Assembly (NCBI GenBank): GCA_017881265.1
Contig: JADGRA010000002.1
Coordinates: 1-38,353 of the forward strand
Length of the DNA stretch: 38,353 bases
DNA from: Myxococcaceae bacterium
GTDB taxonomy: Bacteria; Myxococcota; Myxococcia; Myxococcales; Myxococcaceae
Direction of reading: 5' to 3'
The notes beneath the pieces were generated by a model. The model ran no database searches and had not been told where the DNA came from. It saw nothing but the letters and a program-made list of their open reading frames with translations. Positions 3,235-20,204 of the stretch are shown here, piece after piece. The position numbers were made by a program, and so were the translations under genes. Within the stretch, counting starts at the first letter, position 1. Each line of letters starts with the position of its first letter.

Positions 3235-3257
3235 AGTCCCCCCCGGCGCCCCCCCCT

Positions 3258-3965: not shown

Positions 3966-4716
3966 CGGCCTTTTGCTGTCGGGCAGCATGGCGGTCGCGG
4001 CCGGCGTGGTGGGCTGCTTCGCCGTCATGCGGCGCATGACGCTGGCCGCAGACGCCATGTCCCACATCGCGCTGCCGGGCCTCGGGCTCGCGCTGGTGCT
4101 GCACCTCAACCCCGTCGTCGGCGGCATCGCCATGCTGCTGCTGGGGGCGCTGCTCATCTGGGGCCTGGAGCAGCGCACCGGCATCTCCACCGAGACGGTG
4201 GTGGGCGTCGTCTTCTCCACGGCCCTGGCGGTGGGGAGCATGCTGGCCTCGGGGGAGGAGCTCCTCGATGCGCTTTTGGGAAAGCCCGGGGTGCTCTCCC
4301 CGATGGAACTGGTCTTCGGGCTTCTGGCCCCGCTCGGCGTGGTGCTGTTTCTCATCCGCGCCCGAAACCGCCTCCTCATCACCCTCGTCTCGCCGGACCT
4401 GGCCCGCACCGTCGGCATCCGGGTGGAGCGCCTCAACCTGGGCTTTCTGTTGGCCTTCGCCGTGACGGTGGCCCTCGGGCTGCGCTACCTGGGGGTGCTG
4501 CTGATGGGCTCACTCATCATCATCCCCGCGGCCACGGCCAAGCACCTCGCCCGAAACGTCCGGTCGATGTTTCTGGTTTCGGTGGGCGTCTCCGTCGGGG
4601 CGACGGTGCTGGGCAGCACCCTGGCCGGGTTGCTGCACCGCCCCACCGGGCCGCTCATCATCGCCGTGGCGGCGGCGTGCTTCTTCGTCAGCCTGGCCTG
4701 GCGAAGGCCCGCGTAG
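3955..4716 (+). CDS. Metal ABC transporter permease, ABC-3 (ZnuB-like) family
   Basis: This 253-aa integral membrane protein has about seven or eight hydrophobic helices spread across its length. The 'RRMTLAADAMSHIALPGLGLA' coupling region and 'GVLLMGSLIIIPAATAK' are typical of ABC-3 permeases for zinc, manganese or chelated iron. It begins inside the ATPase gene (11-base overlap). No periplasmic metal-binding lipoprotein (ZnuA-like) is present in the window. After its stop, a 29-base gap separates it from the convergent gene at 4746. Confidence 0.92.
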   Translation: MSISGLLLSGSMAVAAGVVGCFAVMRRMTLAADAMSHIALPGLGLALVLHLNPVVGGIAMLLLGALLIWGLEQRTGISTETVVGVVFSTALAVGSMLASGEELLDALLGKPGVLSPMELVFGLLAPLGVVLFLIRARNRLLITLVSPDLARTVGIRVERLNLGFLLAFAVTVALGLRYLGVLLMGSLIIIPAATAKHLARNVRSMFLVSVGVSVGATVLGSTLAGLLHRPTGPLIIAVAAACFFVSLAWRRPA

Positions 4717-4745
4717 GCACCTGCGCCCGAAGCGGGGACGGACGG

Positions 4746-7160
4746 CTAATGCTTCTTCCCGCCGCCGGACGGGGCCGGCCGGGAGGCGGGTTGCCGAGGC
4801 GCCTGCGGCTTGGGGGCCGACTGCTGCGGGCGCTGCTGGGGCGGCGGACGCGTGCCTCCGCCCATGGAGGACTGGTAACTCTGGGTGCGTTCATTTCCGC
4901 GCTGGCGTGCCTGGTAGTCGCCTTGGATGTTGGACGGGGCAGGCCGGGCCGTGGGCGTCGCCGGGCGCTGAGCCGGCGTGGGCGTGGGGGCGGGGCGCTG
5001 CGGGGGGGTGGGCGAGGGCGCAGGGGTAGGGCGAGCCGCCGGGGTGGGTGGCGTGGCCGGACGCGTCCCCGCGGCTGGCCCCCCGGCCGAAGGCGTGCCC
5101 GGGGCGGGACGCGCCGCGCCGCCGGCGCCGCCGGCAGTGCCTGGCGCCGGCGTGGCGGCGGGCTTCCAGCCGGACTTGTCCCGCTGCTGCCAGTTGCCGT
5201 CCTTCGTCTGCCGCAACACGTTTCCATTCTTGTCGGCGTAGACGTTGTTGGGCGTGGCCGGACGGGTTGCCGGGCGCGCGGCGTTGGCGGGCGGCGTGGT
5301 GGGCCGCGGGACGACGGCATTCGCGTTGCTGGGCCGCTGGTACAGGCTGGCCTGGGGGGGACGACCGCCCGGGTAGCCCCCGGGGGGTGGCCGGTAGCCG
5401 GGTGGGTAGCCGCCCGGAGGGCGGTACCCCGGAGGGGGCCGGTAGCCATACCCAGGCCCGTAGTAAGGCGGCGGGCGGTAGCCGCCCGGGCCGTACCAGC
5501 CACCGCCGTAGGGTGGCCGCCAGGGCGGCCGGTAATAGGCGCCGCCCCACGTCGTGCCGTAATGGAGGAAGCCGACGCTGTACCCCACGCCGTAGCTCCA
5601 CCCCGTCCAGGCGTTGTAGTTGACGCTGAAGCCCCAGGTGACGGGCCGCGGGTAGTAGACGACGGGCGAGACGTAGGCCGGGTAGACGTAGCCCGTGCCG
5701 TACACCACCGCGCCATTCCACGTGTAGCAACCCATGTAGCCGGGCGTGTAGCCGACGTACACCGCCTGCGGCGTCGCCTGGTAAATGGTGACGTACTTCA
5801 CGTTGTACACCGGGCTTGCCGGCGGGATGGTTTGCACGGCCTGTGGCACGGACGTCGCCACCGCCCAGGGCCCCTGCGGCGAGGGCGCCACGTACCAGAT
5901 GGCGTTCACACAGGCGTAGTAGCTGCCATCGATGAGCAGCACGGACGACGGGCTATTCACCGCGTAGGACATGCTGGTGCCGGGAATGGGCTGGAAATTC
6001 GGCTGCCCGTCGTACTGGATGGGGGGCGCGGGCGCGTCTCGCTTCACCTCGGCCGTCTGGGGAATCTGCGCATCGATGATGGCCTCTTTGGCCTGCGTGG
6101 TGCCGGAGACGAAGGCCAGCACGTCGCCCTTGGGGGAGGTCGGGGGGATTTTGGTGAATTCCGGAGGCAGCTGGTCCGAGCGCACGAACGTCCAGGGGCC
6201 TTCCAGCGCGGGGCCGGAATACCAGCGTCCGGCGAGGACGATGAAGTACTTCTGGCTCGCGACGTCCCGGAAGATGTTGTCGTCGGTGTTGGTGACGTAG
6301 AGCAGCTCGGTACCACTGAGGAGCGCGAAGTTGGGCTCGCCTTGCGTCTGGACCAACTCGGTGGGCTCGGTGGCCACCAGGATGTCCGGGGGCGCGGCGT
6401 CCTTGGGAGGCGGCGCGCTCTGGTCCTGCTTGTCGCCCTTGAGGACCACCGCGGCCACCTCCGCCGGCGGATTGGGGATGACACCCCACGGCCCGGCGAG
6501 CAGGTCGGCCGTCTGGTACCAGATGGTGCCGTTGGTCAGGTAGTAGCGCTGCGCGGCCGGGTCGTAGAAAAGCGGGTAGGGCGTATTGACGACGCTATCG
6601 ATGCCCGACTTCTCGATGGTCTTCTTGATGGGGGGGCCGTCGAGGACCACCAGCACCGTCGGCTTGGTTGTGAAGAGGATTTTCGGGGGCGTGGCCTTCA
6701 ACTCATCCGCCGCAGTGCGTTGCACCTGCACCTGCGCCAGGGCCGCGGTGAGCCCGTCGAGCGTCATGGAGAGGTCCCACTTGGGCGTTTCCGCTTCGAT
6801 GTCCGCCGCGAAGCGCTTCTCGTCGTTCTCCGTGGCCTCCGGCAGCTTGAGGCGCGTCACCTTGACGCCGAGCACCTGGACCAGGCGCTGGTCGCGGTCG
6901 ATGTTGACCTCGGCGGAGAACCAGAAGGCGCCGAAGACCGGCTCCGTCTTTCCCTTCGGGGTGAGCGCGAAGGCCGCGCGGCCGTTGAGGGTGGTCCCTT
7001 GCAGGGCCTCGGGCTGCGGCTCATAGACGACGATGGTTCCAGCGACGGAGTCAATCTGCCGGGGCCAACTCGTCGTCCAGTCCGAAGCCGCGCGTGCAGG
7101 ACCGCCTGCGACCAGCAGGCCAAACAGCGCGGCGGCGAGCAGCGAACGGGACCAAGCCAT
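4746..7160 (-). CDS. Large secreted protein with three WY-GPW repeats and Tyr/Pro-rich tail
   Basis: This 804-aa protein has no function I can name. A signal peptide (residues 1-25, ending PARAA) predicts export. Residues ~26-160 form a mixed domain. Three degenerate ~65-residue modules follow (about 161-228, 258-326, 378-435), each ending in W-Y, then 7-8 residues, then G-P-W. Residues ~455-545 are Tyr/Gly-rich, then come repeats of the 'PPGGYPPGYRP' kind (~545-605). The tail is Pro/Ala/Thr-rich (to 804) with an island at 640-666 ('VYADKNGNVLRQTKDGNW'). Similar proteins in proteobacteria carry only vague names. The start ATG at 7160 is chosen because it begins the signal peptide; the open frame upstream reads antisense through fabF. 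It diverges from fabF across 123 bases. Confidence 0.8.
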   Translation of the reverse strand: MAWSRSLLAAALFGLLVAGGPARAASDWTTSWPRQIDSVAGTIVVYEPQPEALQGTTLNGRAAFALTPKGKTEPVFGAFWFSAEVNIDRDQRLVQVLGVKVTRLKLPEATENDEKRFAADIEAETPKWDLSMTLDGLTAALAQVQVQRTAADELKATPPKILFTTKPTVLVVLDGPPIKKTIEKSGIDSVVNTPYPLFYDPAAQRYYLTNGTIWYQTADLLAGPWGVIPNPPAEVAAVVLKGDKQDQSAPPPKDAAPPDILVATEPTELVQTQGEPNFALLSGTELLYVTNTDDNIFRDVASQKYFIVLAGRWYSGPALEGPWTFVRSDQLPPEFTKIPPTSPKGDVLAFVSGTTQAKEAIIDAQIPQTAEVKRDAPAPPIQYDGQPNFQPIPGTSMSYAVNSPSSVLLIDGSYYACVNAIWYVAPSPQGPWAVATSVPQAVQTIPPASPVYNVKYVTIYQATPQAVYVGYTPGYMGCYTWNGAVVYGTGYVYPAYVSPVVYYPRPVTWGFSVNYNAWTGWSYGVGYSVGFLHYGTTWGGAYYRPPWRPPYGGGWYGPGGYRPPPYYGPGYGYRPPPGYRPPGGYPPGYRPPPGGYPGGRPPQASLYQRPSNANAVVPRPTTPPANAARPATRPATPNNVYADKNGNVLRQTKDGNWQQRDKSGWKPAATPAPGTAGGAGGAARPAPGTPSAGGPAAGTRPATPPTPAARPTPAPSPTPPQRPAPTPTPAQRPATPTARPAPSNIQGDYQARQRGNERTQSYQSSMGGGTRPPPQQRPQQSAPKPQAPRQPASRPAPSGGGKKH

Positions 7161-7283
7161 GGCGACCTCACTCCCCGGGGGGGGTTGCACGTCCAGCCCC
7201 TCAGACGGACGGGGCGCTTCTTTAATCACACCTGCCCGCCGAGAGGCGATGCCGGGCCGCCTTCTGTGCGACGCTTCCTGGGT

Positions 7284-8525
7284 ATGGCGGCGCGCAAGGT
7301 GGTGGTCACCGGACTCGGCCTCGTCACCCCGCTCGGCACGGGCGTCGAGGTGACCTGGCAAGGACTTCTCGCCGGGAAGTCCGGCGTCGGCCCCATCACC
7401 CGCTTCGACCCGGGACGGCTCCAGACCCGCATTGCCGCGCAGGTGAAGGACTTCGACGCCCTGCAGTGGATGGACCGCAAGGAGGCGCGCCGCACGGACC
7501 TCTTCGTCCAGTACGCCCTGGCCGCTGCCGAGATGGCGTTGCGGGCGAACGGCTTGCGCGTCGGCCGTGACTACCTCCCGGAGCGGGTGGGCGTCATCCT
7601 CGGGTCGGGAATTGGCGGCCTGGCTTCCGCCGAGGAACACCACGAGAGGGTGCTGCAGGTGGGCTTCGACCGGCTCTCGCCCTTCTTCGTCCTGCAGATT
7701 CTCACCAACACCGCGGCCGGCCTGGTGAGCATCCGCACCGGCGCCGCCGGGCCAAACTGGGCGCCGGTGTCCGCCTGCTCCACCGGGGCGCACGCCCTCG
7801 GTGAGGCGTTGTGGAACATCCGCACCGGGCGCACCGACGCAGTCATCGCCGGCTCTGCCGAAGCGGCGGTGACGCCGTTAAGCGTCGGCGGTTTCGAGGC
7901 CATGCGCGCCCTCTCGGCCCGCAATCAGGACCCCGCAGGGGCGAGCCGACCGTTTGACCGGGAACGGGACGGCTTCGTCCTGGGCGAGGGCGCCGGTGTC
8001 CTTATTCTCGAGGAGAAGGAATCCGCCCAGCGGCGCGGTGCCCCGCTTCTGGCGGAATTCGCCGGCTATGCCGCCAACGCGGACGCGCACCACCTCACCC
8101 AGCCCACCACCGACGGGGCGCGGGCGGCCTCGTGCATGTCGCTGGCGCTGGCCGACGCGGGCCTCGCCCCCGGCGAGGTGGGGTACCTCAACGCCCATGG
8201 CACTTCGACGCCCCTCAATGACGTCCATGAGACGCGCGCCATCAAGCGGGCCTTTGGCGAGCATGCCCACCGGCTCGCGGTGAGCTCCACCAAGTCCATG
8301 ACGGGGCACCTGTTGGGGGCGGCTGGCAGCGTGGAGGCGGCGTTCAGCGTCTTGGCGCTTGCGCGCAGCGTCCTGCCCCCCACCATCAACCAGCGCACGC
8401 CGGACCCGGAGTGCGACCTCGACTATGTCCCCAACACGGCACGGCCGGCGAACGTGCGTGCAGTGATGAGCAACTCGCTCGGCTTCGGCGGCACCAATGC
8501 CGTCTTGCTGTTCACGCGGCCCTAG
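7284..8525 (+). CDS. fabF: Beta-ketoacyl-ACP synthase II (FabF/KAS II type)
   Basis: This 413-aa condensing enzyme performs decarboxylative Claisen elongation of acyl-ACP with malonyl-ACP. The Cys-His-His triad is visible: Cys165 in 'SACSTGAHA', His305 in 'NAHGTSTPLND' and His342 in 'KSMTGHLLGAAG', with Lys337 alongside. The C-terminal 'SNSLGFGGTNAVL' is standard. Length equals E. coli FabF. It stands alone, not beside acpP or fabG, so a secondary role in a specialised fatty-acid or lipid pathway is possible. No good ribosome-binding site precedes the ATG. The frame is open for some 2.6 kb upstream, but that part is antisense to the secreted-protein gene and is not coding. Confidence 0.94.
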   Translation: MAARKVVVTGLGLVTPLGTGVEVTWQGLLAGKSGVGPITRFDPGRLQTRIAAQVKDFDALQWMDRKEARRTDLFVQYALAAAEMALRANGLRVGRDYLPERVGVILGSGIGGLASAEEHHERVLQVGFDRLSPFFVLQILTNTAAGLVSIRTGAAGPNWAPVSACSTGAHALGEALWNIRTGRTDAVIAGSAEAAVTPLSVGGFEAMRALSARNQDPAGASRPFDRERDGFVLGEGAGVLILEEKESAQRRGAPLLAEFAGYAANADAHHLTQPTTDGARAASCMSLALADAGLAPGEVGYLNAHGTSTPLNDVHETRAIKRAFGEHAHRLAVSSTKSMTGHLLGAAGSVEAAFSVLALARSVLPPTINQRTPDPECDLDYVPNTARPANVRAVMSNSLGFGGTNAVLLFTRP

Positions 8526-8599
8526 CGCAACTGCGCCAGGCGCTGAAGTACCGCGCCGCCCAGGACACGAAGAAGGGCAAGTAGTCGCGAGGGCAGCCG

Positions 8600-8640
8600 G
8601 AGGCCCCGCTGCCACACCGGAAACTGCCTGGCGGGGCCTC
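8600..8640. terminator. Hairpin between convergent fabF and carboxyltransferase genes
   Basis: A perfect 10-bp inverted repeat (GAGGCCCCGC at 8600-8609 and its complement at 8631-8640) with a 21-base loop lies in the 124-base gap between the two convergent stops. It probably terminates both genes. No clear T-tract follows on either strand, so this is a likely but not canonical terminator. Confidence 0.5.
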
Positions 8641-8649
8641 GACGGGCTG

Positions 8650-10230
8650 TTACAGGGGTGGCACTTCGCGGCGGCGCCAGGGCCGTTCCACCGTCTTGTT
8701 CACGCTGCGCCGGAGCGCCAGGGCGAGCTGCCACCGCGTGTCGCGGGGGTCGATGATGTCGTCCACCATGGCCATGGCGGCCGCGCGGTCGACCCGGACG
8801 TGGGGCCGCAGCGAGGCGGCGAGCTCCTCCTTGAGGGCCTTGGCCGCCTCCGGACTGCCGGCCGCATCCAGCAGCTTCCGGGCGGCGATGGCCACCAGCC
8901 CGTCGGCCCCCATGACGCCAATCTCGGCCCCCGGCCAGGCCACCAGGAGGTCCGGTTCAAAGGCCCGGCCATTCATGACGTAGTAGCCCGCGCCAAAGCC
9001 CTTGCGCACGACGACGGTGAACTTGGGGACGGTGGCCGAGGCGACGGACTGCAGCATCCTCGCCCCGTGGCGGATGAGGCCCTGCTGCTCGGTCTTGGTG
9101 CCCACCAGGAAGCCGGGGACGTCCTGCAGAAACAGCAGTGGCAGCTGGAAGGCGTCGCACAGGGCGACGAAGCGGGCGGCCTTGTCGCTCGCGGCGACAT
9201 CCAGCACGCCGCCGAGAAACATGGAGTTGTTGGCGATGATGCCGAGTGGGTACCCGTCGATGCGGCCCAGCCCGGTAATAATATTTCGGGCGAAGCGCGG
9301 CTTGATGCTGAAGAAGTGCCGCTCATCCACCAGCGCGTGGATGACCTTGTGCATGTCGAAGGCCTGGCGCGGGTTGTCTGGCACCACGGCAAGCAGCGCC
9401 TCGTCGCGCCGCTGGGCCGCGTCGGGGCTGAGCTGTCGCGGGGGCCGCTCCTGACAGTGCGACGGAAAGAACGACAGGTAGTCGCGCACCGCGCGGATGC
9501 AGGCCGCGTCGTCGGGGAATTCCCCGTCGGCGACGCCGGACAATTCGTTGTGCATCCGGCTCCCGCCCAGTTCCTGCTCGGTGACTTTCTCGCCCACTGT
9601 CGACTCAACCAGGGTCGGTCCGCCGACGGCAATCGAGCCGATGTCTTTCACCATCGGGACGTAGTCAGCGAGGCCCGGGATGTACGCCGTGCCGGCCGCT
9701 CCGGGGCCCAGCATGGCGGCCACCTGGGGAACCACGCCCGACAGCACCGACTGCTCTCGGAAGAGGTAGCCCGTGTCGGCGAAGCCGGCCAACCGCCGCG
9801 GGTCCACCTCGCCTGCCTCCAGCCGAGCCCCGGCCGAATCCACCAGCCACACCAGGGGGAGCCGCTCCTTCAGCACCAGGTCCCGCAGCCGGGTCACCTT
9901 GCGCTCGCCCACCTCCCCGATGGAGCCCCCGAGGACGGTGAAGTCGTAGATGGCCGCGGCCACCGGGCGACCGGCCACCTGTCCAATGGCGGTGAGGACG
10001 CCGTCCGCCGGCGTGGGGCGGGAGGCGTCCTCCTCTTCGGGCAGTCGGCCTTCGGCGGCCGCCAGGCCGCCCAGTTCCTGGACGGTGCCGGGGTCGAAGA
10101 GGAGAGCCAGCCGCGCACGGGCGTCCAGCTTGTTGCGCCCCCGCTGACGCGCGACGCGCTCCGCGCCACCCATTTCGGCCTTCTTGGCCCGGAGCTGCTC
10201 CAGTGCTTCCACCCGCTCCTTCATCCCCAT
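8650..10230 (-). CDS. Biotin-dependent acyl-CoA carboxylase, carboxyltransferase (beta) subunit
   Basis: This 526-aa crotonase-fold enzyme transfers carboxyl from carboxybiotin to an acyl-CoA. N- and C-terminal carboxyltransferase halves are visible: 'VDSAGARLEAG' (130-140), 'GPGAAGTAYIPGLADY', then 'ANNSMFLGGVLD' and 'DVPGFLVGTKTEQQGLIRHG' (370-389). In 'RKGFGAGYYVMNGRAF' (409-424) the position that is Asp422 in Streptomyces propionyl-CoA carboxylase is Tyr417. The 'GAG-Y-GRAF' context looks closer to methylcrotonyl- or geranyl-CoA carboxylases, so the substrate is open. I chose ATG 10230, preceded by GGGGAGG 13 bases upstream; the longer frame to 10308 adds an unconserved stretch. No biotin carboxylase subunit is nearby. 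Confidence 0.9.
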   Translation of the reverse strand: MGMKERVEALEQLRAKKAEMGGAERVARQRGRNKLDARARLALLFDPGTVQELGGLAAAEGRLPEEEDASRPTPADGVLTAIGQVAGRPVAAAIYDFTVLGGSIGEVGERKVTRLRDLVLKERLPLVWLVDSAGARLEAGEVDPRRLAGFADTGYLFREQSVLSGVVPQVAAMLGPGAAGTAYIPGLADYVPMVKDIGSIAVGGPTLVESTVGEKVTEQELGGSRMHNELSGVADGEFPDDAACIRAVRDYLSFFPSHCQERPPRQLSPDAAQRRDEALLAVVPDNPRQAFDMHKVIHALVDERHFFSIKPRFARNIITGLGRIDGYPLGIIANNSMFLGGVLDVAASDKAARFVALCDAFQLPLLFLQDVPGFLVGTKTEQQGLIRHGARMLQSVASATVPKFTVVVRKGFGAGYYVMNGRAFEPDLLVAWPGAEIGVMGADGLVAIAARKLLDAAGSPEAAKALKEELAASLRPHVRVDRAAAMAMVDDIIDPRDTRWQLALALRRSVNKTVERPWRRREVPPL

Positions 10231-10317
10231 TGCAGAAGCCCGTCCTCCCCAGAAAGACACCTGTGCGACATCCGCCCCCACGCGGCGCGGCGCGCGCGAG
10301 GTTAGCATCGCCTGGCC

Positions 10318-11283
10318 ATGGCTCGGCGGCCTCTACGCATCGTCAGCTACAACGTCCGCTACTTCGGGCACGCGTTGAGCGGGCTGGCCACCACCCGGCG
10401 CTCCATCGAGGGCATCGCCCGCAAGCTGGCGCACCTGGACCCGCTCGCCGACGTGGTGTGTCTGCAGGAAGTGGAGACGCGCAGCCTTCGCTCGACGGTG
10501 GCGTTCCGCAAGGGGGCCGCGACGCAGCTGGAAGCCTTCATGGAGGCGCTGGCCGCGGACTTCGCGCGCCCCAGGCGCGCCTTTCCCTACGAGGCCTACT
10601 ACTTCCCCGCCCACACCTACCGGCTGCGCCAGACGGCCATCTACACCACCGGGCTCGCGGTCCTCGTCAACCGGGAACGCCTCACCGTGCAGGGGCACAA
10701 CGGGCGGCAGCCCCACTCCATCACCCACCACCACGTGGCCCGGCTGCGCCAGGCCAAGCAGAGTCGCATCTGCGCACACGTCCGGCTGGCCGCCCCCGGG
10801 GGGGCGCTGCACGTCTTCAACACCCACCTCAGCCTGCCCACGCCCTTTGCGCGCTCCTTCTGGGCGGCACGGGAGAAGATGGGCTTCGGGTCGAATCAGG
10901 TGCAGGAGGCGCGCAAGCTGGTGGCGCACGTCCAAGCGGTGGCCGGGCGCGAGCCGTTCGTCGTCTGTGGCGACTTCAACTCCTCCCCCGCCTCGCCGGT
11001 GTACCGCTACCTCACCTCCGAGGCCGGCTGGCACGGGGCCCAGGAGCAGCTCAAGCAGATTGACGCCACCGCCCGCACCGGCTTCCCTACCGCGGGCTTC
11101 TTCCGCCTCCGGATGCACCTCGACCATCTGTTCGGGGGCAACGGGGTGCGCTGGGTGGACCTGGAGGGGACGGCCCCCTTCGGCGCGAGCCCCTTCCAGG
11201 GGCTGTCGGACCACATCCCCCTCATCGCCCGTTTCCAGCTGGGGGCGCCCGGGCCTGCCCACAGAAGCGAAGACGTCGCGTAA
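10318..11283 (+). CDS. Endonuclease/exonuclease/phosphatase (EEP) family hydrolase
   Basis: This 321-aa protein is a complete EEP (DNase I-like) domain. Metal and catalytic motifs appear in order: 'SYNVRYFG' (Asn12), 'CLQEVE' (Glu51), 'FNTHLSL', 'VCGDFNSSP', 'HLDHLF' and 'LSDHIPLIA'. No signal peptide is evident, so it is probably cytoplasmic. The family includes nucleases, inositol-phosphate phosphatases and sphingomyelinases; the substrate cannot be assigned. It diverges from the carboxyltransferase gene. A TAGCAT at 10303-10308 could be a -10 element giving a very short leader, but no matching -35 is seen. Confidence 0.88.
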   Translation: MARRPLRIVSYNVRYFGHALSGLATTRRSIEGIARKLAHLDPLADVVCLQEVETRSLRSTVAFRKGAATQLEAFMEALAADFARPRRAFPYEAYYFPAHTYRLRQTAIYTTGLAVLVNRERLTVQGHNGRQPHSITHHHVARLRQAKQSRICAHVRLAAPGGALHVFNTHLSLPTPFARSFWAAREKMGFGSNQVQEARKLVAHVQAVAGREPFVVCGDFNSSPASPVYRYLTSEAGWHGAQEQLKQIDATARTGFPTAGFFRLRMHLDHLFGGNGVRWVDLEGTAPFGASPFQGLSDHIPLIARFQLGAPGPAHRSEDVA

Positions 11284-11303
11284 GCTAGTGACTTCAAGCG
11301 CCC

Positions 11304-12863
11304 TTGGCCCGCCTCGACCCCATCTTCGAGCGGCTCCACCGCGAACGCGGCAGCGAGCTCGTCTTTGCCTCCGGCCAGCCGGTGGTGATGCGCACCGCCG
11401 CCGGCGACGTCGCGGTTCTGCGCCAGCAGCTGACCTCGCAGCAGATTGCCGGCGTCTTCGCCGAGCTCGTCCCGCCGGAGATTCGCAACGGCTTTCCCGC
11501 ATCCGGGGTGACGCGCTTCGCCTACGAGGCACCCGCCGGATGGGTGGGCGTCCTGTTCGAGCGCAAGGAGGCGCTGGTGCGGGCGCTGGTGCGTCCGCAG
11601 CCTGGCGAGGCCGAGGCGCCCGGCCCGGCGCCGGCGGCCGACAAGGCGGAGGGGCGCCCCGGGCCCGCCCCGTTGCAGCGGCCGGCCGCAGCGTCGGCCC
11701 CCGCCCCCGCTGCCCCTGCGGACGACGCTGCCCCCGCGGAGCCCGGCCCGCTTCCCCCAGCGCCGGCCGACCCGCGCGCGGCCATGGTCCAGCTGCTGGA
11801 GGCGGCGGTGGAGCGGGGGGCCTCGGACCTCCACCTCACCAGCGACGGGCCGCCGGCGATGCGCATCGACGGGGACATGGTGCAGCTTGAGGACTACGGG
11901 CCTGTGGCGCGCGCGCGGCTGCGGGAGATGATTTTCTCCATCTCCCCGGAGAAGAACCGCGCGCAGTGGGAAGCGGAGCGCGACACGGACTTCGCGCTCG
12001 AGATGCCCGACGTCCGCTTTCGCGTCAACGTCTTCGAGGACCGCCGAGGCATCGGCGCGGCCATGCGCCAGGTGCCGGCCAAAATCCGGACGGCCGAGGA
12101 TCTGGCCCTTCCCAAGGCGGTCATCGAGCTGTGCGCGCACAGCAAGGGCCTGGTCCTGGTGACCGGACCGACGGGCTCCGGCAAGTCCACCACGCTGGCG
12201 GCGATGGTGGACTACGTCAACCGCACGCGGGCCCAGCACATCATCACCATCGAGGACCCAGTCGAATTCGTGCATCCCAACCGGCGCTGCCTCGTCCACC
12301 AGCGGGAAGTGGGCGTGCACACCGCCTCCTTCAAGCAGGCCCTCCGGGCAGCCCTGCGCGAGGACCCGGACGTCGTGCTGGTGGGGGAAATGCGCGACCT
12401 GGAAACCATCTCCATCGCGCTCGAGACGGCGGAGACGGGCCACCTCGTCTTCGGCACGCTGCACACCAACACGGCGCCGTCGACGGTGGACCGCATCATC
12501 GACCAGTTCCCGGCGGACCGGCAGTCACAGGTCCGGACGATGCTCTCAGAAAGTCTCCGGGGCGTCGTGTCCCAGACGCTCTGCAAGCGCCGCGGAGGGG
12601 GACGGGTGGCGGCGCTGGAGATTCTGGTGGTGACCCCGCCCGTGGCCAACCTCATCCGGGAGGGGAAGACGTTTCAAATCCAGTCGACCATGCAGACCGG
12701 ACGGTCCTTCGGAAACCAGATGCTGAATGACGCGCTGCTCGAGCTGGTGAAGAAGTCCGTGGTCGAGCCAGACGAGGCCTACGCCAAGTCGGTCGCCAAG
12801 GCCGAGTTCCGCCAGCAACTGGACCGGGCGGGCTTCAAGCTCGGCGCGGCCGAGGAGCGCTAG
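11304..12863 (+). CDS. PilT-like type IV pilus retraction ATPase with duplicated N-terminal domain
   Basis: This 519-aa AAA-type secretion ATPase has a full PilT core from about residue 158: 'ERGASDLHLTSDGPP', Walker A 'GPTGSGKS' (288-295), Asp box 'IEDPVEF' (316-322), Walker B 'DVVLVGEMRD' (356-365), His box 'GHLVFGTLHTNT' and C-terminal 'NLIREGKTFQI'. Residues ~5-90 repeat the PilT N-terminal (PAS-like) domain in degenerate form ('RERGSELVFASGQP'). A ~65-residue Ala/Pro linker joins the copies. Canonical PilT is ~350-380 aa. The start is TTG at 11304, because an in-frame TGA lies at 11289-11291. It is probably a PilT paralogue rather than the main retraction motor. Its stop overlaps the convergent gene. 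Confidence 0.9.
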   Translation: MARLDPIFERLHRERGSELVFASGQPVVMRTAAGDVAVLRQQLTSQQIAGVFAELVPPEIRNGFPASGVTRFAYEAPAGWVGVLFERKEALVRALVRPQPGEAEAPGPAPAADKAEGRPGPAPLQRPAAASAPAPAAPADDAAPAEPGPLPPAPADPRAAMVQLLEAAVERGASDLHLTSDGPPAMRIDGDMVQLEDYGPVARARLREMIFSISPEKNRAQWEAERDTDFALEMPDVRFRVNVFEDRRGIGAAMRQVPAKIRTAEDLALPKAVIELCAHSKGLVLVTGPTGSGKSTTLAAMVDYVNRTRAQHIITIEDPVEFVHPNRRCLVHQREVGVHTASFKQALRAALREDPDVVLVGEMRDLETISIALETAETGHLVFGTLHTNTAPSTVDRIIDQFPADRQSQVRTMLSESLRGVVSQTLCKRRGGGRVAALEILVVTPPVANLIREGKTFQIQSTMQTGRSFGNQMLNDALLELVKKSVVEPDEAYAKSVAKAEFRQQLDRAGFKLGAAEER

Positions 12864-13057
12864 GCGCCGGGCCCCGGCCGAGGCGAGAGCACGTCGTTCA
12901 CCGAGGGCATGCGGCGGATGTCCGAGCGCCCCACCTTCCAGGCTTGCTGGACAATCCACGAGAGGGACCGGTCCTGCCGCGTCGCCTCGCGCTGGATTTC
13001 CTCCAGCATCTCCTCCGGGAAGTAGAGGCTCTGCTTGCGGTGGTCGGTACCCGCCAT
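12860..13057 (-). CDS. Small ribbon-helix-helix-like protein, copy 2 of a tandem pair
   Basis: This 65-aa protein begins 'MAGTDHRKQSLYFPEEMLEE' and continues with a Q-R-E-A-T-R-Q-D-R-S-L-S-W helix. The short basic strand followed by two amphipathic helices is the pattern of Arc/MetJ-type DNA-binding proteins. I recall a myxobacterial small-protein family of this kind (TIGR04563), many copies per genome, without known function; family number is from memory. It starts 6 bases after the stop of its paralogue, so the two form an operon. A GAGGAAGG stretch upstream is a plausible ribosome site. Its stop lies on the opposite strand of the PilT-like gene's stop (4-base convergent overlap). Confidence 0.85.
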   Translation of the reverse strand: MAGTDHRKQSLYFPEEMLEEIQREATRQDRSLSWIVQQAWKVGRSDIRRMPSVNDVLSPRPGPGA

Positions 13058-13063
13058 CGGAGG

Positions 13064-13273
13064 CTAGCCTTCCTCGCGCAGGTCAGGCAGCGCCGGCTCG
13101 CCCGTCACGTCGTTGACGGCCGGGAAGGACTTGATGCGCTCGCGGGCAATCCGCCACGCTTGTTGGACTACCCAGGACAGCGACCGGTCCTGCCGGGTCG
13201 CCTCTTCCTGAATCTCCCGGAGCATCTCCTCCGGGAAGTACAGAGACTGCTTGCGTTTGTCAGTGCCCGCCAT
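13064..13273 (-). CDS. Small ribbon-helix-helix-like protein, copy 1 of a tandem pair
   Basis: This 69-aa protein is very similar to its neighbour over the first ~50 residues ('KRKQSLYFPEEMLREIQEE', 'RQDRSLSWVVQQAW') and diverges at the C-terminus ('ERIKSFPAVNDVTGEPALP'). The ATG at 13273 is chosen because homology begins there; 26 further codons are open upstream but look unconserved. GGGAG sits 10 bases before the ATG. A sigma-70-like promoter lies at 13372-13400, giving a leader of about 90 bases. Probably a sequence-specific DNA-binding or toxin-antitoxin-like antitoxin fold protein; no toxin gene is adjacent, so a stand-alone regulator is more likely. Confidence 0.85.
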   Translation of the reverse strand: MAGTDKRKQSLYFPEEMLREIQEEATRQDRSLSWVVQQAWRIARERIKSFPAVNDVTGEPALPDLREEG

Positions 13274-13371
13274 GCCGTGCCGTCTCCCTAGGGAATCGCC
13301 CCTCCAGGACAGCCGAATCCGCACCGTGGCAGCCCGACTCCTGGAACCCACTGTGGCGTCCCTTAGGAGGT

Positions 13372-13400
13372 GTTATCCGACAGCATTGGAGGCGGGTCAA
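13372..13400 (-). promoter_or_regulatory. Sigma-70-like promoter of the RHH-like gene pair
   Basis: On the minus strand TTGACC (13400-13395) and GATAAC (13377-13372) are separated by 17 bases. This predicts a start near 13365 and a ~90-base leader before the ATG at 13273. It lies downstream of the minus-strand terminator at 13425-13472, so the pair would be transcribed independently of the candidate small RNA. Confidence 0.5.
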
Positions 13401-13424
13401 ACCTATGACCGCGCCGGGCGTACG

Positions 13425-13472
13425 AAAAAAAGGGGCCGCCCCGGCTCTCCTGGGGGAGAACCGGGGCAGCCC
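13425..13472 (-). terminator. Strong Rho-independent terminator (minus strand)
   Basis: GGGCTGCCCCGGTTCTCC, loop CCCA, then the complementary arm (13472 down to 13433) form an uninterrupted 18-bp stem if two G-U pairs are allowed. One base later comes T7 (13431-13425). On the plus strand the same positions would be two A-C mismatches and there is no T-run, so it acts on minus-strand transcription. It ends the candidate small RNA. Confidence 0.8.
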
Positions 13473-13565
13473 GGAGAGAAGGGCACCCTGGAGAGCCCGG
13501 TAAAGGCTCCCAGGACGCCCCGTGGACCCAGAGGGGGAGGGGGGGGACCCCTGGGTCCATCTTTC
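13425..13565 (-). ncRNA. Candidate small regulatory RNA, Pxr-like, three stem-loops
   Basis: Read on the minus strand, this part of the 367-base gap folds into three consecutive hairpins. The first is a perfect 9-bp stem (13551-13559 with 13523-13531) whose 19-base loop contains C8-T-C5. The second (13488-13513) has 4+5 bp with one bulged base. The third is an 18-bp terminator stem followed by U7. Two G-U pairs in the terminator exist only in minus-strand RNA, which fixes the orientation. No ORF is supported. Myxococcus Pxr, which blocks development when nutrients are present, is as I recall a three-hairpin RNA with a cytosine run in stem-loop 1, so this may be its homologue. The 5' end is estimated; a convincing sigma-54 promoter was not found by eye. 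Confidence 0.6.
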
Positions 13566-13583
13566 TGACGTATTCGCAGGGCT

Positions 13584-13606
13584 GGAACACGGGAACCCGC
13601 TGTTCC
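13584..13606. promoter_or_regulatory. Palindrome upstream of the candidate small RNA and tilS
   Basis: GGAACACGGG / CCCGCTGTTCC: six perfect outer pairs (GGAACA...TGTTCC), one bulged base and a GC-rich inner arm. It lies 20-40 bases upstream of the predicted small-RNA 5' end and about 35 bases upstream of tilS. It could be an operator shared by the two divergent units. No T-tract follows, so it is not a terminator. Confidence 0.35.
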
Positions 13607-13640
13607 ATTCCTGAAACCCATCCTAACGAGGGGGGCTGCC

Positions 13641-15005
13641 GTGCTTCAACGGAGCGTCTCGACGACACTGCCCTCCATCCGGAGCCAACCCGTGTCCCAG
13701 GACGACAAGCCCTCCCCTGCATCGCCCGTGCGTTCCGCGCTGGAGGAGTTTTTCAGGGCCTACGGCGGACGGACGTTGCTGGCGGTGTCCGGCGGGGTGG
13801 ACTCGCTGGCCCTGTTGACGGCGGCAGCCGAGCTCGCCCCGGAGCGCGTGGGGGTCGCCAGCCTGGACCACGGCCTGCGGCCCACCTCGGCTGGGGAGGT
13901 GGAGGCGGTGCGCGCGCTGGCCGCGTCCCTGGGGCTGGCCTTCCACACGGCGCAGCTGGGGCTGCGGCCCGGCCCCGGCATGGAAGCCCGGGCCCGGGCC
14001 GCACGCTACGCGGCCCTCGAGACACTGCGCGCCCAAGGGGGCTACCAGTGGGTGGCCACCGCCCACACCCGCGACGACCAGGCGGAGACGCTCCTCATGC
14101 GCCTTGGGCGGGGCGCCGCTCTGCGCGGCGCAGGCGGCGTCCGGTCCCACCGGGGACACCTGGTGCGCCCGCTTTTGTCGGTGGGCCGCGCCGACCTCGA
14201 GGAACACGTCGCGGCACGGGGCCTCGTCCCGGTGCGGGACCCTTCCAACGCGGACCTCTCGCTGCTGCGTGCGCGCATTCGCCACGGCGTACTGCCCGCG
14301 CTGGTGCAGGCGGCCGGCCCGGCCGCCGTCAAGAATCTGGCGGCCTTCGCCGCCCATGCCGCCGAGGACGAGGCGCTGCTCGCCGAGCAGGCAGCTCTGG
14401 CGCTGGAGCGCGCCCGCGTGCCGGGCGGGCTGGACGCCGTCGCCGTGCGCAGCTTGCCGGGCCCCCTGCAGCGCCGGGCGCTGGTGGCCTGGCTGGCCGA
14501 GGCCGCTGTCGCGGTGAGTGGGCGGCTGGTGTCCCAGGTGCAGGAGGCCCTGCGGCGCGGGGGACACTGTGGGCTACCGGGGCACCGGCTGCTTCGCAGC
14601 GAAGGCGGCCTGGTGCGGATTGCGGCCGAGGCGCCTGCAGGTGCCGAGGTGGCGCTCGCGCCCGATGCCTGGGTGCTTTTCGGCGGCTTCCGGTTGCGCC
14701 TAGACTCCTCCTCGACGCCCGGGCCGGCGGCGTTCCCGGTAGGCCAGCAGGTTGGCCCCCTGAAGGTGCGGGGCCGACGGCCCGGCGACCGGGTCCACGC
14801 CAACGGAGGGCGGCGGCGCTCCGTGCAGGACATCTTCGTGGATGCGCGCATCCCGGCCGAGCAGCGGGACAGCTGGCCGCTGCTGGTCGAGGCGCAGGAG
14901 CGGGTGCTGTGGGTGGTTGGCCTGTGGCCGCCCGTCCGCCCGGGGATCGCCGGCCCTGCCGTCCTGGCCGAACCGACAAGCGCGATGCGGCGCGACGGGT
15001 TATAG
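13641..15005 (+). CDS. tilS: tRNA(Ile)-lysidine synthase
   Basis: This 454-aa PP-loop ATPase attaches lysine to cytidine 34 of the CAU-anticodon isoleucine tRNA so that it reads AUA. The PP-loop 'SGGVDS' is at residues 50-55, followed by 'SLDHGLRPTS', 'ATAHTRDDQAETLLMRLGRG' and 'VRDPSNADLSLLRARIRH', all TilS signatures. The C-terminal TilS domain ('VRGRRPGDRVHANGGRR', 'VQDIFVDARIPAEQR') is complete. The GTG start at 13641 follows GAGGGGGG by five bases; a second GTG at 13692 would remove 17 poorly conserved residues. It heads the block that continues with ftsH. Confidence 0.95.
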   Translation: MLQRSVSTTLPSIRSQPVSQDDKPSPASPVRSALEEFFRAYGGRTLLAVSGGVDSLALLTAAAELAPERVGVASLDHGLRPTSAGEVEAVRALAASLGLAFHTAQLGLRPGPGMEARARAARYAALETLRAQGGYQWVATAHTRDDQAETLLMRLGRGAALRGAGGVRSHRGHLVRPLLSVGRADLEEHVAARGLVPVRDPSNADLSLLRARIRHGVLPALVQAAGPAAVKNLAAFAAHAAEDEALLAEQAALALERARVPGGLDAVAVRSLPGPLQRRALVAWLAEAAVAVSGRLVSQVQEALRRGGHCGLPGHRLLRSEGGLVRIAAEAPAGAEVALAPDAWVLFGGFRLRLDSSSTPGPAAFPVGQQVGPLKVRGRRPGDRVHANGGRRRSVQDIFVDARIPAEQRDSWPLLVEAQERVLWVVGLWPPVRPGIAGPAVLAEPTSAMRRDGL

Positions 15006-15080
15006 GGCTGCCACGGCGCTTGCGACGGGAGGGTGAACGCCCTCAGAATGCAGGTCGCAGGCGCGAAAGGGTTTCTGGAC

Positions 15081-16994
15081 GTGCGATCGAGCTACAAGAC
15101 CATCGGGCTGTGGGTAATCCTCATCGCCCTCTTCGTTTGCTTCTACAACATCTTCTCTCGTCAGACGGAGGAGGTGGTGGAGCCGAGCTTCACGTCGCTG
15201 CTTACAAGGATTGACGAGAAGAAGGTCCGCCTGGTCGCCGTCAAGGGCAATACCTACTCGGGGACCTTCGAGGACACGCACGAGAAGTTCCGCACCACCG
15301 GCCCCGCCGCCGACGCCACCATGCTCAAGCAGCTCCGCGATGCGGGCGTCGAGGTGAAGTACGAGAAGGAAGAGCAGAACAGCCTGTGGCTGACCATCCT
15401 CGGTCAGTGGATGCCGGTGCTGTTCCTCTTCGTCTTCTTCGTCATCTTCATGCGCCAGCTGCAGGGCACCGGCGGCAAGGCGATGACCTTCGGGAAGTCC
15501 AAGGCCAAGCTGCTGAGCGAGAGCCACAACAAGGTCACCTTCTCGGACGTGGCTGGCATCGACGAGTGCAAGGAAGAGCTCGAGGAGATTATTGCCTTCC
15601 TCAAGGACCCCAAGAAGTTCACCAAGCTCGGGGGCCGCATTCCCAAGGGCGTGCTGATGATGGGGCCGCCGGGGACGGGCAAGACGCTGCTGGCCAAGGC
15701 AGTGGCCGGCGAGGCGGGCGTGCCGTTCTTCTCCATCAGCGGCTCGGACTTCGTCGAGATGTTCGTCGGCGTGGGCGCGAGCCGCGTCCGCGACCTCTTC
15801 GAGCAGGGCAAGAAGAACGCCCCCTGCATCATCTTCATCGACGAGATTGATGCGGTGGGACGCCACCGCGGCGCCGGGCTGGGCGGCGGACACGACGAGC
15901 GCGAGCAGACCCTCAACCAGCTTCTGGTGGAGATGGACGGCTTCGAGTCCAACGAGGGCGTCATCCTCATCGCTGCCACCAACCGCCCCGACGTCCTCGA
16001 CCCGGCGCTGCAGCGGCCGGGGCGCTTCGACCGGCGCATTGTGGTTCCGCGCCCGGACCTCAACGGCCGCATCGGCGTGCTGATGGTGCACACCAAGCGA
16101 GTTCCGCTGGCCCCGGAAGTCGACCTGGAGATTATTGCCCGGGGCACCCCGGGGATGACCGGGGCCGACCTCGAGAACCTGGTCAACGAGGCGGCGCTGT
16201 TCGCCGCGCGGCACAACAAGGAGCGGGTGGAGGTCGCCGACTTCGAGAGCGCCAAGGACAAGGTCTTCATGGGTCCGGAGCGCAAGTCGATGATTATGAC
16301 GGAGAAGGAGAAGCGGAACACCGCCGTGCACGAGGCAGGGCACGCGCTGGTGGCCAAGCTGCTCCCCGGCTGCGACCCGGTGCACAAGGTCTCCATCATC
16401 CCGCGCGGACAGGCGCTGGGCGTCACCTGGTCGCTCCCCACCGAGGACCGGCTCAACCTCTACCGCCAGTCCACCCTGGACCGCATCTGCATGGCGATGG
16501 GCGGGCGCATCGCCGAGGAACTCGTCTTCAACGAAATCAGCTCGGGCGCCGCCAACGACATCGAGCGCGCCACCGAGACGGCCCGGGCGATGGTGTGCCG
16601 CTGGGGGATGAGTAGCAAGCTGGGGCCGTTGGCCTTCGGGGCCCGCGAGGGCGAAGTCTTCCTCGGCCGCGACCTCTACACCCGGCCCGACTACTCCGAG
16701 GAGACGGCACGGCAGATTGATGAAGAGGTGCGCGAGATTGTCATGAGCTGCTACGAGCGCGCCAAGAAGCTCCTCCAGGAGAACTTTGACACGCTCAACC
16801 GCATCGCCGACGGCCTCATCGAGTACGAGACGCTGGAGGCCGATGACGTGGAGACCCTGGTGAAGGGTGGCACCATCACCCGGGACCGCCCGAAGCCGCG
16901 GGTGAACGCGCCCCCCAAGCTGGAGAAGAAGGACAAGCGGAAAATCCTCGACGCCCTCGAGCCGCTGCCGGCGCTGGAGCCCAACAAGGCGTAA
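15081..16994 (+). CDS. ftsH: ATP-dependent zinc metalloprotease FtsH
   Basis: This membrane-anchored AAA+ protease degrades unassembled membrane proteins and short-lived regulators. From the chosen GTG (15081, '[12 protein letters not shown]') it is 637 aa. A first membrane helix is immediately N-terminal ('[16 protein letters not shown]'), a periplasmic segment follows, then a second helix ('[15 protein letters not shown]'). The AAA module has Walker A 'GPPGTGKT', Walker B '[10 protein letters not shown]' and the arginine-finger region '[11 protein letters not shown]'. The zinc site is 'HEAGH', with the third ligand in '[11 protein letters not shown]'. A longer frame starts at GTG 15033, where GGGAGG directly abuts the codon. 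The shorter start is preferred because family members begin just before the first helix. Confidence 0.96.
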
Positions 16995-17016
16995 GGGCTG
17001 GCACGTCGGTTGGTCC

Positions 17017-18246
17017 ATGCTCGCTCGCCCCATCGCGCTGGACCGCTCTTCGGACCTCGACGCCGCGCTGGTGCGCCTGGGCCTGCCAACCAAGGCGCGG
17101 GAATACCTGCTGGAAAAGCTGCCGCACGCCCAGCTGTTGCTGACGGGGCTCGGCCCCACCGAGGGCCGCTTCCTCAAGCGCGTCTGTGAGGAGGGCGCCG
17201 CTGGCCTCTACCCCCGCTTCGTCTCGGGCCAGCAGGCCCTCCGGCCGGGAACGGCGCTTCTGTCCGGTGCCCGGGACCAGCTGGCGCGCCTCGTCCAGGC
17301 CGCGCGCGAGGGCCCGGAGCTTCAGCCGCTGGCCGAGGCGTTGGAGCGGGCGCTGGCGGTGGGCACCCTTCCCGAGCCAATGGACTTGGGTGGCCGCCGC
17401 TTCGTCTGGGGAGAGCGGACGTACGTCATGGGCGTCCTCAACGTGACGCCCGACAGCTTCTCGGACGGAGGCAACTTTTCCTCAGTGGAGAAGGCCGTCG
17501 CGCACGGCCTCGCGCTTGCCGCGGCCGGGGCGGACGTGGTGGACGTCGGCGGGGAGTCCACCCGCCCGGGCGCCGCCGAGGTGCCGCAGGACGAAGAATT
17601 GCGCCGCGTCCTTCCCGTCATCCAGGGGCTGCGCGCGCAGTCCGAGGTGCCCCTGTCCATCGACACCCGCAAGGCAGCCGTGGCCGAGGCGGCACTGGCG
17701 GCGGGTGCGGCGCTGGTGAACGACGTCACCGGCTTCACCGCGGACGCGGGCCTGGCGGCCGTCGCCGCCCGGGCCGGCGCCGCTGCCTGCCTCATGCACA
17801 TGCAGGGCACCCCCCGCACCATGCAGCAGGCGCCGCACTACCAGGACGTGGTGGCGGAGGTGCTGGAGGCGCTCGCGGCCTCGGTGGCCCAGGCCGAGGC
17901 GGCCGGCATCCCCCGGCGGCGCATCTGGGTCGACCCGGGCATTGGCTTCGGGAAGACGCTCGACCACAACCTCTTCCTCCTGCACCACCTGCAGGAATTG
18001 CGGCTCCTCGGTTGCCCCATCGTCCTCGGCACCAGCCGCAAGGCCTTCCTGGGGGCGCTGGCCGGCGGGAAGCCTGCGGACCGGCGCCTGCCGGGGACGG
18101 TGGCTTCGCTGGCGGCCGCGGCGGTAGCAGCCGGGGTGGACGTGGTGCGCGTGCACGACGTGGCAGACGTCCGTGACGCACTGGCCGTTGTAGACGCCAT
18201 TCGCCACGCCCGGGGCGGCGGGACGCTCTGGGAGGCCAGCCGCTGA
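17017..18246 (+). CDS. folP: Dihydropteroate synthase with ~125-residue N-terminal extension
   Basis: This enzyme condenses 4-aminobenzoate with hydroxymethyl-dihydropterin diphosphate in folate synthesis. The TIM-barrel core spans ~130-405: 'MGVLNVTPDSFSDGG' (138-152), 'DVGGESTRPGA' (176-186), 'SIDTRKA', 'NDVTGF', 'LMHMQGTPRTMQ', 'DPGIGFGKT', 'LGTSRKAF' and 'RVHDV'. Residues 1-125 are an extra helical-looking segment ('LPTKAREYLLEKLPHAQLLL') absent from typical ~280-aa FolP. The ATG lies 22 bases after ftsH, and the ftsH-folP linkage matches E. coli. No strong ribosome site is seen, so translational coupling is likely. Confidence 0.94.
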   Translation: MLARPIALDRSSDLDAALVRLGLPTKAREYLLEKLPHAQLLLTGLGPTEGRFLKRVCEEGAAGLYPRFVSGQQALRPGTALLSGARDQLARLVQAAREGPELQPLAEALERALAVGTLPEPMDLGGRRFVWGERTYVMGVLNVTPDSFSDGGNFSSVEKAVAHGLALAAAGADVVDVGGESTRPGAAEVPQDEELRRVLPVIQGLRAQSEVPLSIDTRKAAVAEAALAAGAALVNDVTGFTADAGLAAVAARAGAAACLMHMQGTPRTMQQAPHYQDVVAEVLEALAASVAQAEAAGIPRRRIWVDPGIGFGKTLDHNLFLLHHLQELRLLGCPIVLGTSRKAFLGALAGGKPADRRLPGTVASLAAAAVAAGVDVVRVHDVADVRDALAVVDAIRHARGGGTLWEASR

Positions 18247-18311
18247 AGCGCAAGAAGTGCGCGCCACGCCGCCACCGCTGCTGTGGCACACTTCTGGCTG
18301 GAGGCGTGTCC

Positions 18312-20204
18312 ATGGCCCTCGAACATCTCCTCACCGTCGGTGACACATTCCTGGCCCCCGAGTCGCTGCGCCGCACGGCTGTCCCGGCGGACGTGGCCGC
18401 GGAGCGGGCACGCAGCCTGAAGGACCCGGACGCCTTCTGGGGGGCTTGGGCAAAGCGCTTCCGCTGGAGTGAGCCGTGGAGCCAAGTCTTTGACTGGCAA
18501 TACCCCGACCACCGCTGGTTCGTCGGCGGCAAGACCAACGTCGTCGACAATGCCCTCGACCGGCATGCCGATGGCCCCCGGAAGAACCACCTGGCCCTCA
18601 TTTGCCTCGGCGAGGATGGAAGCGAGCGCCGGGTCACCTACGGCGAGCTGCGTGACATGGTGTCCCGGCTGTCGACCGGCCTGCGCGCGCTCGGCGTCGA
18701 GACGGGGGACCGGGTCCTCATCTACATGCCCCTCACCCTGGAGGGCGTGGTGTCGATGCTGGCCGTGGCCAGGCTGGGCGCCATCCACTCCGTCGTCTAC
18801 GCCGGCCTCGGCGTCGGGGCGTTGCGCGACCGGATTGTCGATGCGGGGGCCAAGGTCATCATCGCCGGAGACGTCGGCTTCCGGCGCGGCAAGCCGGTCG
18901 AGCTGCAGGCGTTGATGGACGAGGCGATGCAGGGCCTCGACGTGCGACACGTCGTCTGGTTCCAGCGTCGGGCGGGTGGCGGCCGGCCGCTCAAGGCGCA
19001 CGAGGTGGACTTTCACCGCCTTCTGGCCGAGCACCAGCCGAAGACGGCGCCGGTGCAGGTGGACGCCGAGCATCCCCTCTTCATCCTTTACACCTCCGGC
19101 TCCACCGGAAAGCCCAAGGGCGTGGTGCACGTCCATGGCGGCTACATGGTGGGCATCACCTACCACCTGCGCACCTTCTTCGACGTCCGCGACGACGACA
19201 TCTACTGGTCGACCAGCGACATCGGCTGGGTGGTAGGTCACTCCTATATTGTGTACGCGCCGCTGTTGGAGGGCGTGACGGCGGTACTGCGCGAGGGCTC
19301 CCCGGACTACCCGGACCCCGGGGTGACGTGGCGGGTGGTGGAGAAGCTGAAGGTGAACGTCATGTTCACCGCGCCGACGGCCATCCGCATGTTCATGAAG
19401 TTTGGTGCGGAGCTCCCGGCCAAGGCCAACCTCGCCTCGCTGCGACTCATCACCGTGGCCGGCGAGCCCCTCAACCCGGAAGCCTGGCGGTGGGCGTTTG
19501 AACACCTGGTGGCCAGCGGCAAGCGCGGCTTCATCTGCGACAACTGGTGGCAGACGGAGCTCGGAGGCCCGACGCTGGGCACGCCGACGTCGCTGGCGGC
19601 GAAGCCGGGAAGCGTCGGTGTGGCATTGCCCGGCGTGGACGCCGCCGTCATCGACGCCGATGGCAAGGAGGTGCCGGCCGGCAAAGGGGGGTTGCTCGCC
19701 CTGCGCCGTCCCTTCCCCCACATGATGCGCACCGTCTGGGGAGACCATGCCCGGTACAAGCAGTACTGGGAGGAGTTCCCCGGCAAGGTGTACGCCGCCG
19801 GCGACGTGGCCAGCTGGGACAAGGACGGGTACTTCACCGTGCTGGGGCGCAGCGACGACGTCCTCAACGTCGCGGGCCACCGCATCGGCAGCGCGGATGT
19901 GGAGAGCGCCCTGGTCAGTCACCCGGCGGTGGCGGAGGCAGCCGTCATCGGCATCCCGGACTCCCTCAAGGGAGAGGCCATTTCTGCCTTCGTCCTGTTG
20001 CGCGCCGGGCGCAAGGACTCCCCCGAGCTGCGGGCGGAACTGGTGGACCACGTCCGCCATGAGCTTGGGCCCATCGCCACCCCCCACTCCATCGAGGTGC
20101 GCGAGCGGCTGCCCAAGACGCGAAGTGGAAAAATCATGCGACGGCTACTGCGTGCCGAGGCACTCGGCCTGGAGAAAGGCGATACTTCCACTCTGGAGGA
20201 ATGA
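18312..20204 (+). CDS. Acetyl-CoA synthetase-like (AMP-forming) acyl-CoA ligase
   Basis: This 630-aa ANL-superfamily ligase activates a short carboxylate through an acyl-adenylate. It has the N-terminal acetyl-CoA synthetase segment, the P-loop '[18 protein letters not shown]', '[20 protein letters not shown]', 'NWWQTELGG', '[20 protein letters not shown]' and the C-terminal catalytic Lys607 in '[10 protein letters not shown]', the usual acetylation target. The Trp in 'WWQTE' limits the pocket to acetate or propionate in Acs. The ATG at 18312 is preferred because TGGAGG lies 7 bases upstream; GTG 18306 is too close to it. Propionate is a possible alternative substrate. It sits between folP and glmM. 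Confidence 0.92.

Follow-up and report, generated by a model that had tools for sequence, protein, structure and literature searches.

The small RNA Pxr blocks fruiting-body development in Myxococcus xanthus and is processed to a short form; in the literature found for this study, it is the sole small RNA of this organism to have been studied in depth. Small RNAs with C-rich loops have also been described in other bacteria, among them sX13, GsrN and B11, the last of which is a 6C RNA. In B11, the C-rich loop pairs with G-tracts that adjoin ribosome-binding sites (PMC12395582), the C-rich loops of sX13 from Xanthomonas act on G-rich motifs without Hfq (PMC3771888), and the C-rich loop of GsrN from Caulobacter acts on the katG leader and activates katG (PMC5869019). 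Since M. xanthus is without hfq (PMC5684412), action independent of Hfq, as seen with sX13, would be needed there.

The window analyzed in this study is the whole 38,353-nt stretch of contig JADGRA010000002.1 from a Myxococcaceae bacterium. Its minus strand encodes a three-hairpin RNA of approximately 135–160 nt which represents a family of oriented, structured and terminated small RNAs, a conclusion that is strongly supported. The RNA and its neighbors comprise the following features:

13641–15005, plus strand: tilS (tRNA-Ile lysidine synthetase), the divergent neighbor.
13607–13611, minus strand: GGAAT, a candidate ECF-type -35 element, 52 nt before hairpin 1.
13584–13589, minus strand: TGTTCC, a candidate -10 element that follows GGAAT by 17 nt.
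13523–13559, minus strand: hairpin 1 (SL1), a 12-bp stem with a 13-nt loop (U-C8-U-C3), where conservation of the RNA is highest.
13480–13521, minus strand: hairpin 2 (SL2), a stem of 18 pairs interrupted by a single 1-nt bulge.
13433–13472, minus strand: hairpin 3 (SL3), 18 pairs with a 4-nt loop, forming with U7 an intrinsic terminator and an addition seen in family f1.
13425–13431, minus strand: U7, 3' of SL3.
13064–13273, minus strand: RHH gene 1, 69 aa, TIGR04563 (123 bits against a cut-off of 65), downstream of the RNA.
12860–13057, minus strand: RHH gene 2, 65 aa, TIGR04563, a tandem copy.

Read from 13559 to 13523, SL1 has the sequence UGGACCCAGGGG-U-C8-U-C5-UCUGGGUCCA (as DNA, TGGACCCAGGGGTC8TC5TCTGGGTCCA) with the pyrimidine run C8-U-C5 at 13546–13533. 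The region 13415–13575 has a folding energy of -102.8 kcal/mol compared to -69.5 ± 4.3 kcal/mol for 200 dinucleotide shuffles, none of which was as low (z = -7.78). A preliminary description of this DNA had placed the C8-T-C5 run in a 19-nt loop closed by nine base pairs. While both the hairpin and the run are present, the minimum-energy fold extends the stem to 12 bp and reduces the loop to 13 nt, and this extension is kept in relatives. Hairpin 2 is a bulged stem as had been proposed; however, its length had been undercounted as nine base pairs. The third hairpin was found just as described, with its 18-bp stem at 13433–13472 of the minus strand followed by U7 at 13431–13425.

A small-protein reading of the same region was rejected. 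The 72-aa open reading frame on the minus strand derives from the hairpin sequence and, since the length of the C-run differs by 1–2 nt among relatives, its frame is broken and the region is not a coding sequence. On the plus strand, a frame of collagen-like Gly-X-Y repeats (13251–13568) is merely the reverse complement of the hairpins.

Covariation was evaluated in an alignment of 37 sequences, from which a covariance model of SL1 and SL2 was also built. Standard pairs occupy 90.5% of the structure cells compared to 82.9% in shuffled alignments, two-sided changes occur at 14 of 24 pairs, and the covariation score of 0.314 (0.185 when shuffled) was reached by none of 500 shuffles. Structures that were slid along the alignment were 39–61% paired. 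For SL1, 99.3% of the cells are paired and the column pairs 4-36, 5-35 and 9-31 show compensatory changes, and for SL2 two-sided changes are present in 11 of the 12 aligned pairs. RNAalifold recovered SL1 and most of SL2 unaided. An alignment of relatives had been put forward earlier as a means of finding compensatory changes and, in these 37 sequences, the stems are indeed conserved and covarying.

The SL1 loop is nearly invariant and is more conserved than the varying letters of its own stem. Across relatives it takes the form (U)C5-8-U-C5, of which C8 is the most common, and the C-run is one or two nucleotides shorter in five genomes (G016, G018, G036, G046 and G163). SL1 also contains G-U pairs, at columns 11-29 in 36 of the 37 sequences and at columns 8-32 in 21. 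As these G-U and U-G pairs would read A-C on the opposite strand, they fix the RNA to the minus strand. T-runs follow the hairpins on the same strand across families, so that the proposed orientation is upheld by both features. In distant families, including Anaeromyxobacter, the RNA is approximately 72 nt and consists of SL1 and one terminator hairpin with a T-run. In Anaeromyxobacter, as in other families, the counterpart of SL2 itself serves as the terminator, and family f1, which includes the source genome, has the extra SL3 with strongly conserved arms. Since the distant families keep just SL1 and a terminator hairpin, SL1 with its loop is the working core of the RNA.

A blastn-type search with the interval produced matches in 37 of 60 related genomes from several families of the order, one per genome except for two in G036. 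With the covariance model, 126 of the 195 Myxococcota genomes searched gave a match (108 of the 149 of good quality), again as one copy per genome with the exception of G036. In this genome (L087:1994-2191), SL1–SL2 is doubled in tandem with C7 loops in both copies. A single match, in G163, was located outside the myxobacterial order. Exact matches to a 24-mer from the core of SL1 were found in 46 GTDB contigs that are myxobacterial by title or content, including Myxococcus, Corallococcus, Archangium, Anaeromyxobacter and M. xanthus AM003 (L036). One record titled Comamonas sp. KCTC 72670 (BNCN01000007.1; L039) contains Myxococcus-like sequence with tilS, the RNA and two TIGR04563 genes, and is mislabelled or contaminated. 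In three genomes of 2.1–2.7 Mb from one genus (g21: G020, G033 and G158) in the family of the source genome, the window RNA was not detected and a pxr-like match has been kept. The TIGR04563 search covered two of these, G020 and G033, and found one gene in each.

The preliminary description had considered the RNA a candidate homologue of Pxr. Genuine pxr was identified in the searched genomes by means of published primers and a published probe (PMC5684412, PMC5568312). Its SL1, CTGAAGGYGGTTC7AC4TTCAGC, was found in 7 of 60 genomes with a gapped pattern; a pattern with C6 gave no matches, the real run being C7. In M. xanthus, the Pxr loop UUC7AC4 is presented by a GCUGAAGG stem. A model made from the seven pxr sequences matched nearly all family-f1 genomes with just marginal matches elsewhere. 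Both pxr and the window RNA are present at separate loci in G008, G014, G015, G022, G027, G029 and G034, and in many more genomes by model; thus, the window RNA is not Pxr. In the M. xanthus-like genome G022, pxr is situated between pxrR on its upstream side and the acetyltransferase gene pxrA on its downstream side, and is preceded by a TGGCAC-type sigma-54 promoter, as published. A tblastn search with pxrA and with pxrR (nla19), which Pxr follows in the same orientation, returned matches at pxr loci and none within positions 1–20000 of the window. A sigma-54 promoter of the form TGGCAC-N5-TGCTA precedes pxr in most of seven loci (L077–L083). The window RNA is without this promoter and, together with its relatives, has GGAAT-N17-TGTT upstream. 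The source genome has a divergent pxr candidate of its own on another contig (G000:C35:22486-22598, L128:3987-4099, 36.6 bits) with the loop UUCCCCCCCACC (UUC7ACC), a conserved SL3 and a T-run; pxrR was absent from the 4 kb read upstream of this candidate.

From these comparisons, it is extremely improbable that the window RNA is the Pxr of the source organism or its direct orthologue. The two RNAs do come from the same broad group of organisms, and the window RNA shares with Pxr the three hairpins, the C-run in loop 1 and the use of the third hairpin as terminator, although its relatives in other families have two hairpins. The window-RNA model matches Pxr genes weakly, with at most 15.5 bits (E of about 0.1 in 21 kb), mostly via the C-run of hairpin 1, and the Pxr model matches SL2–SL3 of the window RNA with 20–26 bits via generic hairpins. 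Set against this likeness, orthology is refuted by the coexistence of both RNAs, and the source genome holds a pxr candidate elsewhere. The stem, the loop (C8UC5 compared to C7AC4), the type of promoter and the neighboring genes all differ, with no pxrR adjoining, and the window RNA extends to families in which no pxr match is convincing, Anaeromyxobacter included. While the homology that had been claimed is not supported, the C-run of the first loop and the order of the hairpins are a real resemblance, which may point to a comparable mode of action. One scenario of common origin, in which a myxobacterial C-loop superfamily has the window RNA as its older member, Pxr arose from a copy of this RNA in one family and both, with their similar C-runs, compete for the same mRNAs with G-tracts, is regarded as distinctly unlikely. 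If it were true, the decision between growth and development would rest on two C-loop RNAs and not on Pxr alone. The suggestion that cross-hybridization with the window RNA accounts for an unexplained additional band on published Northern blots of Pxr was rejected, the duplex with the probe having an energy of -30.7 kcal/mol compared to -29.1 ± 2.9 kcal/mol for shuffled RNA.

The surroundings of the RNA bear on two further explanations, each of which ties it to an adjacent gene. Upstream sequence was sufficient at 111 loci, including that of G163, and in all 111 tilS is divergent and 82–311 nt from SL1; these loci are partly redundant, several being counted twice. Most relatives have GGAAT or GGAAA approximately 45–65 nt upstream of SL1, and many have TGTT(G) or TGTTC at the position equivalent to the -10 element. 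As a sequence motif, GGAAT-N17-TGTT looks like an ECF-type promoter. The constant presence of tilS might mean that the RNA regulates tilS or is held in place by shared promoter DNA. This is highly improbable: conservation is strongest in the hairpins and not in the shared promoter stretch, with divergent transcription the conserved part of the RNA is not antisense to the tilS message, and a fixed location can be plain inheritance. On the other flank are one or two small RHH genes of TIGR04563, a family that was identified in 58 of the 60 relatives, is close to the RNA in most and was absent from all 14 control genomes. These genes follow on the same strand, approximately 170–340 nt downstream, in Anaeromyxobacter and in the majority of family-f1 genomes, an arrangement that speaks for a role of the RNA in cis, as leader or attenuator of the RHH genes. 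Such a role is nonetheless very unlikely, as a strong terminator ends the RNA and the position of the genes is not constant. A convergent lipoprotein-like gene (~2 kb, ~590–760 codons) is located between the RNA and the RHH genes in several clades (L066, L067, L040, L085, L089 and L090), is not present there in the window, and some other clades have no RHH gene near the RNA. TIGR04563 also occurs in genomes where the RNA was not found, and among relatives no conserved complementarity was identified between the RHH ribosome-binding sites and the SL1 loop, on which ground the RHH mRNA was also rejected as a target. A TCGGATAAC-like motif precedes the RHH genes in many relatives, and RHH gene 1 is probably its own transcription unit. 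Since the convergent gene separates the RNA from the RHH genes in several clades, the RNA is a unit of its own. This gene and the TCGGATAAC-like motif are consistent with the earlier view that the RNA and the RHH genes are separate and have separate promoters.

It is considered fairly likely that the window RNA is a stand-alone, trans-acting sRNA with its own promoter and terminator, and that it acts by pairing of its C-rich loop with G-tracts in the vicinity of ribosome-binding sites. Transcription would begin at a promoter divergent from that of tilS and stop at the intrinsic terminator. The exposed (U)C5-8-U-C5 loop of hairpin 1 would carry the function by pairing with G-rich tracts close to the ribosome-binding sites of several mRNAs, altering their translation or stability, and hairpins 2 and 3 would serve to stabilize the RNA and end transcription. 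The anatomy is that of C-rich-loop sRNAs, with an exposed C-rich loop, a stable conserved stem, a terminator of its own and an intergenic location. Judging from this analysis, the RNA probably silences or tunes mRNAs with G-runs. In eight genomes, 102 GGGGAGGGGG-N2-14-ATG sites were counted compared to 45 in a reversed control, an excess that the purine bias of Shine-Dalgarno sequences could explain, and no conserved target emerged from the G-tract search of eight genomes. A protein-binding role would explain the conserved loop equally well. As a decoy or scaffold, the C-rich loop would bind and titrate a protein, for example of the poly-C binding or cold-shock type, and the loop is more strongly conserved than would be expected of a seed with changing targets. 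Along with the single copy per genome and the outcome of the G-tract search, this lends the decoy some weight; it is still rather unlikely, given that known bacterial C-loop sRNAs of such anatomy act by pairing and that no candidate protein partner was identified.

A covariance search of Rfam had been suggested earlier as a check on the Pxr assignment. With Rfam 15 at the gathering threshold there were no matches in the whole window, and the window RNA passes no Rfam threshold. Membership in the 6C family (RF01066) was rejected at 22.2 bits against a gathering threshold of 47, and the low-scoring Rfam matches to Scr3202 and ar7 were far below their thresholds. No report of the window RNA was found in the literature searched. 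Two surveys of structured RNAs, covering 26 and 50 bacterial genomes, name no myxobacteria in their main text. In one M. xanthus predation transcriptome, unnamed sRNAs were detected and omitted from further analysis; the window RNA may be among them. The window RNA is a separate, uncatalogued family, belonging to a functional kind, the C-loop sRNAs, that is already known.

Compared to Pxr, the window RNA has the broader distribution; its loop is nearly invariant, and it is present in M. xanthus itself. Its position beside tilS is fixed and easily deleted, and its function is therefore directly testable. It may also serve as a control in work on Pxr, since the same cells contain both RNAs and the two C-runs are similar.

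Among the known systems, Pxr of M. xanthus (PMC5568312, PMC5684412) resembles the window RNA in its length, in its three hairpins of which the last is the terminator, and in a first-loop C-run broken by one other base. It differs in the sequence of stem and loop, its sigma-54 promoter, its pxrR neighbor and its locus. In the genomes searched, Pxr is convincing in one family only, where it is often multicopy, whereas the window RNA is broader. The actinobacterial 6C RNA / B11 (RF01066, PMC12395582) also presents C-rich loops in stable hairpins but belongs to another phylum and has another sequence, as reflected in the score of 22.2 bits against 47. By description, sX13 (PMC3771888) is comparable as a 115-nt RNA whose three stems are capped by C-rich loops; it has three such loops compared to the one long C8UC5 loop of the window RNA. 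GsrN, likewise a C-rich-loop sRNA by description, is alphaproteobacterial and has as its activator a stress sigma factor of the ECF type, a feature to which the window RNA may be likened through the motif reading of its ECF promoter.
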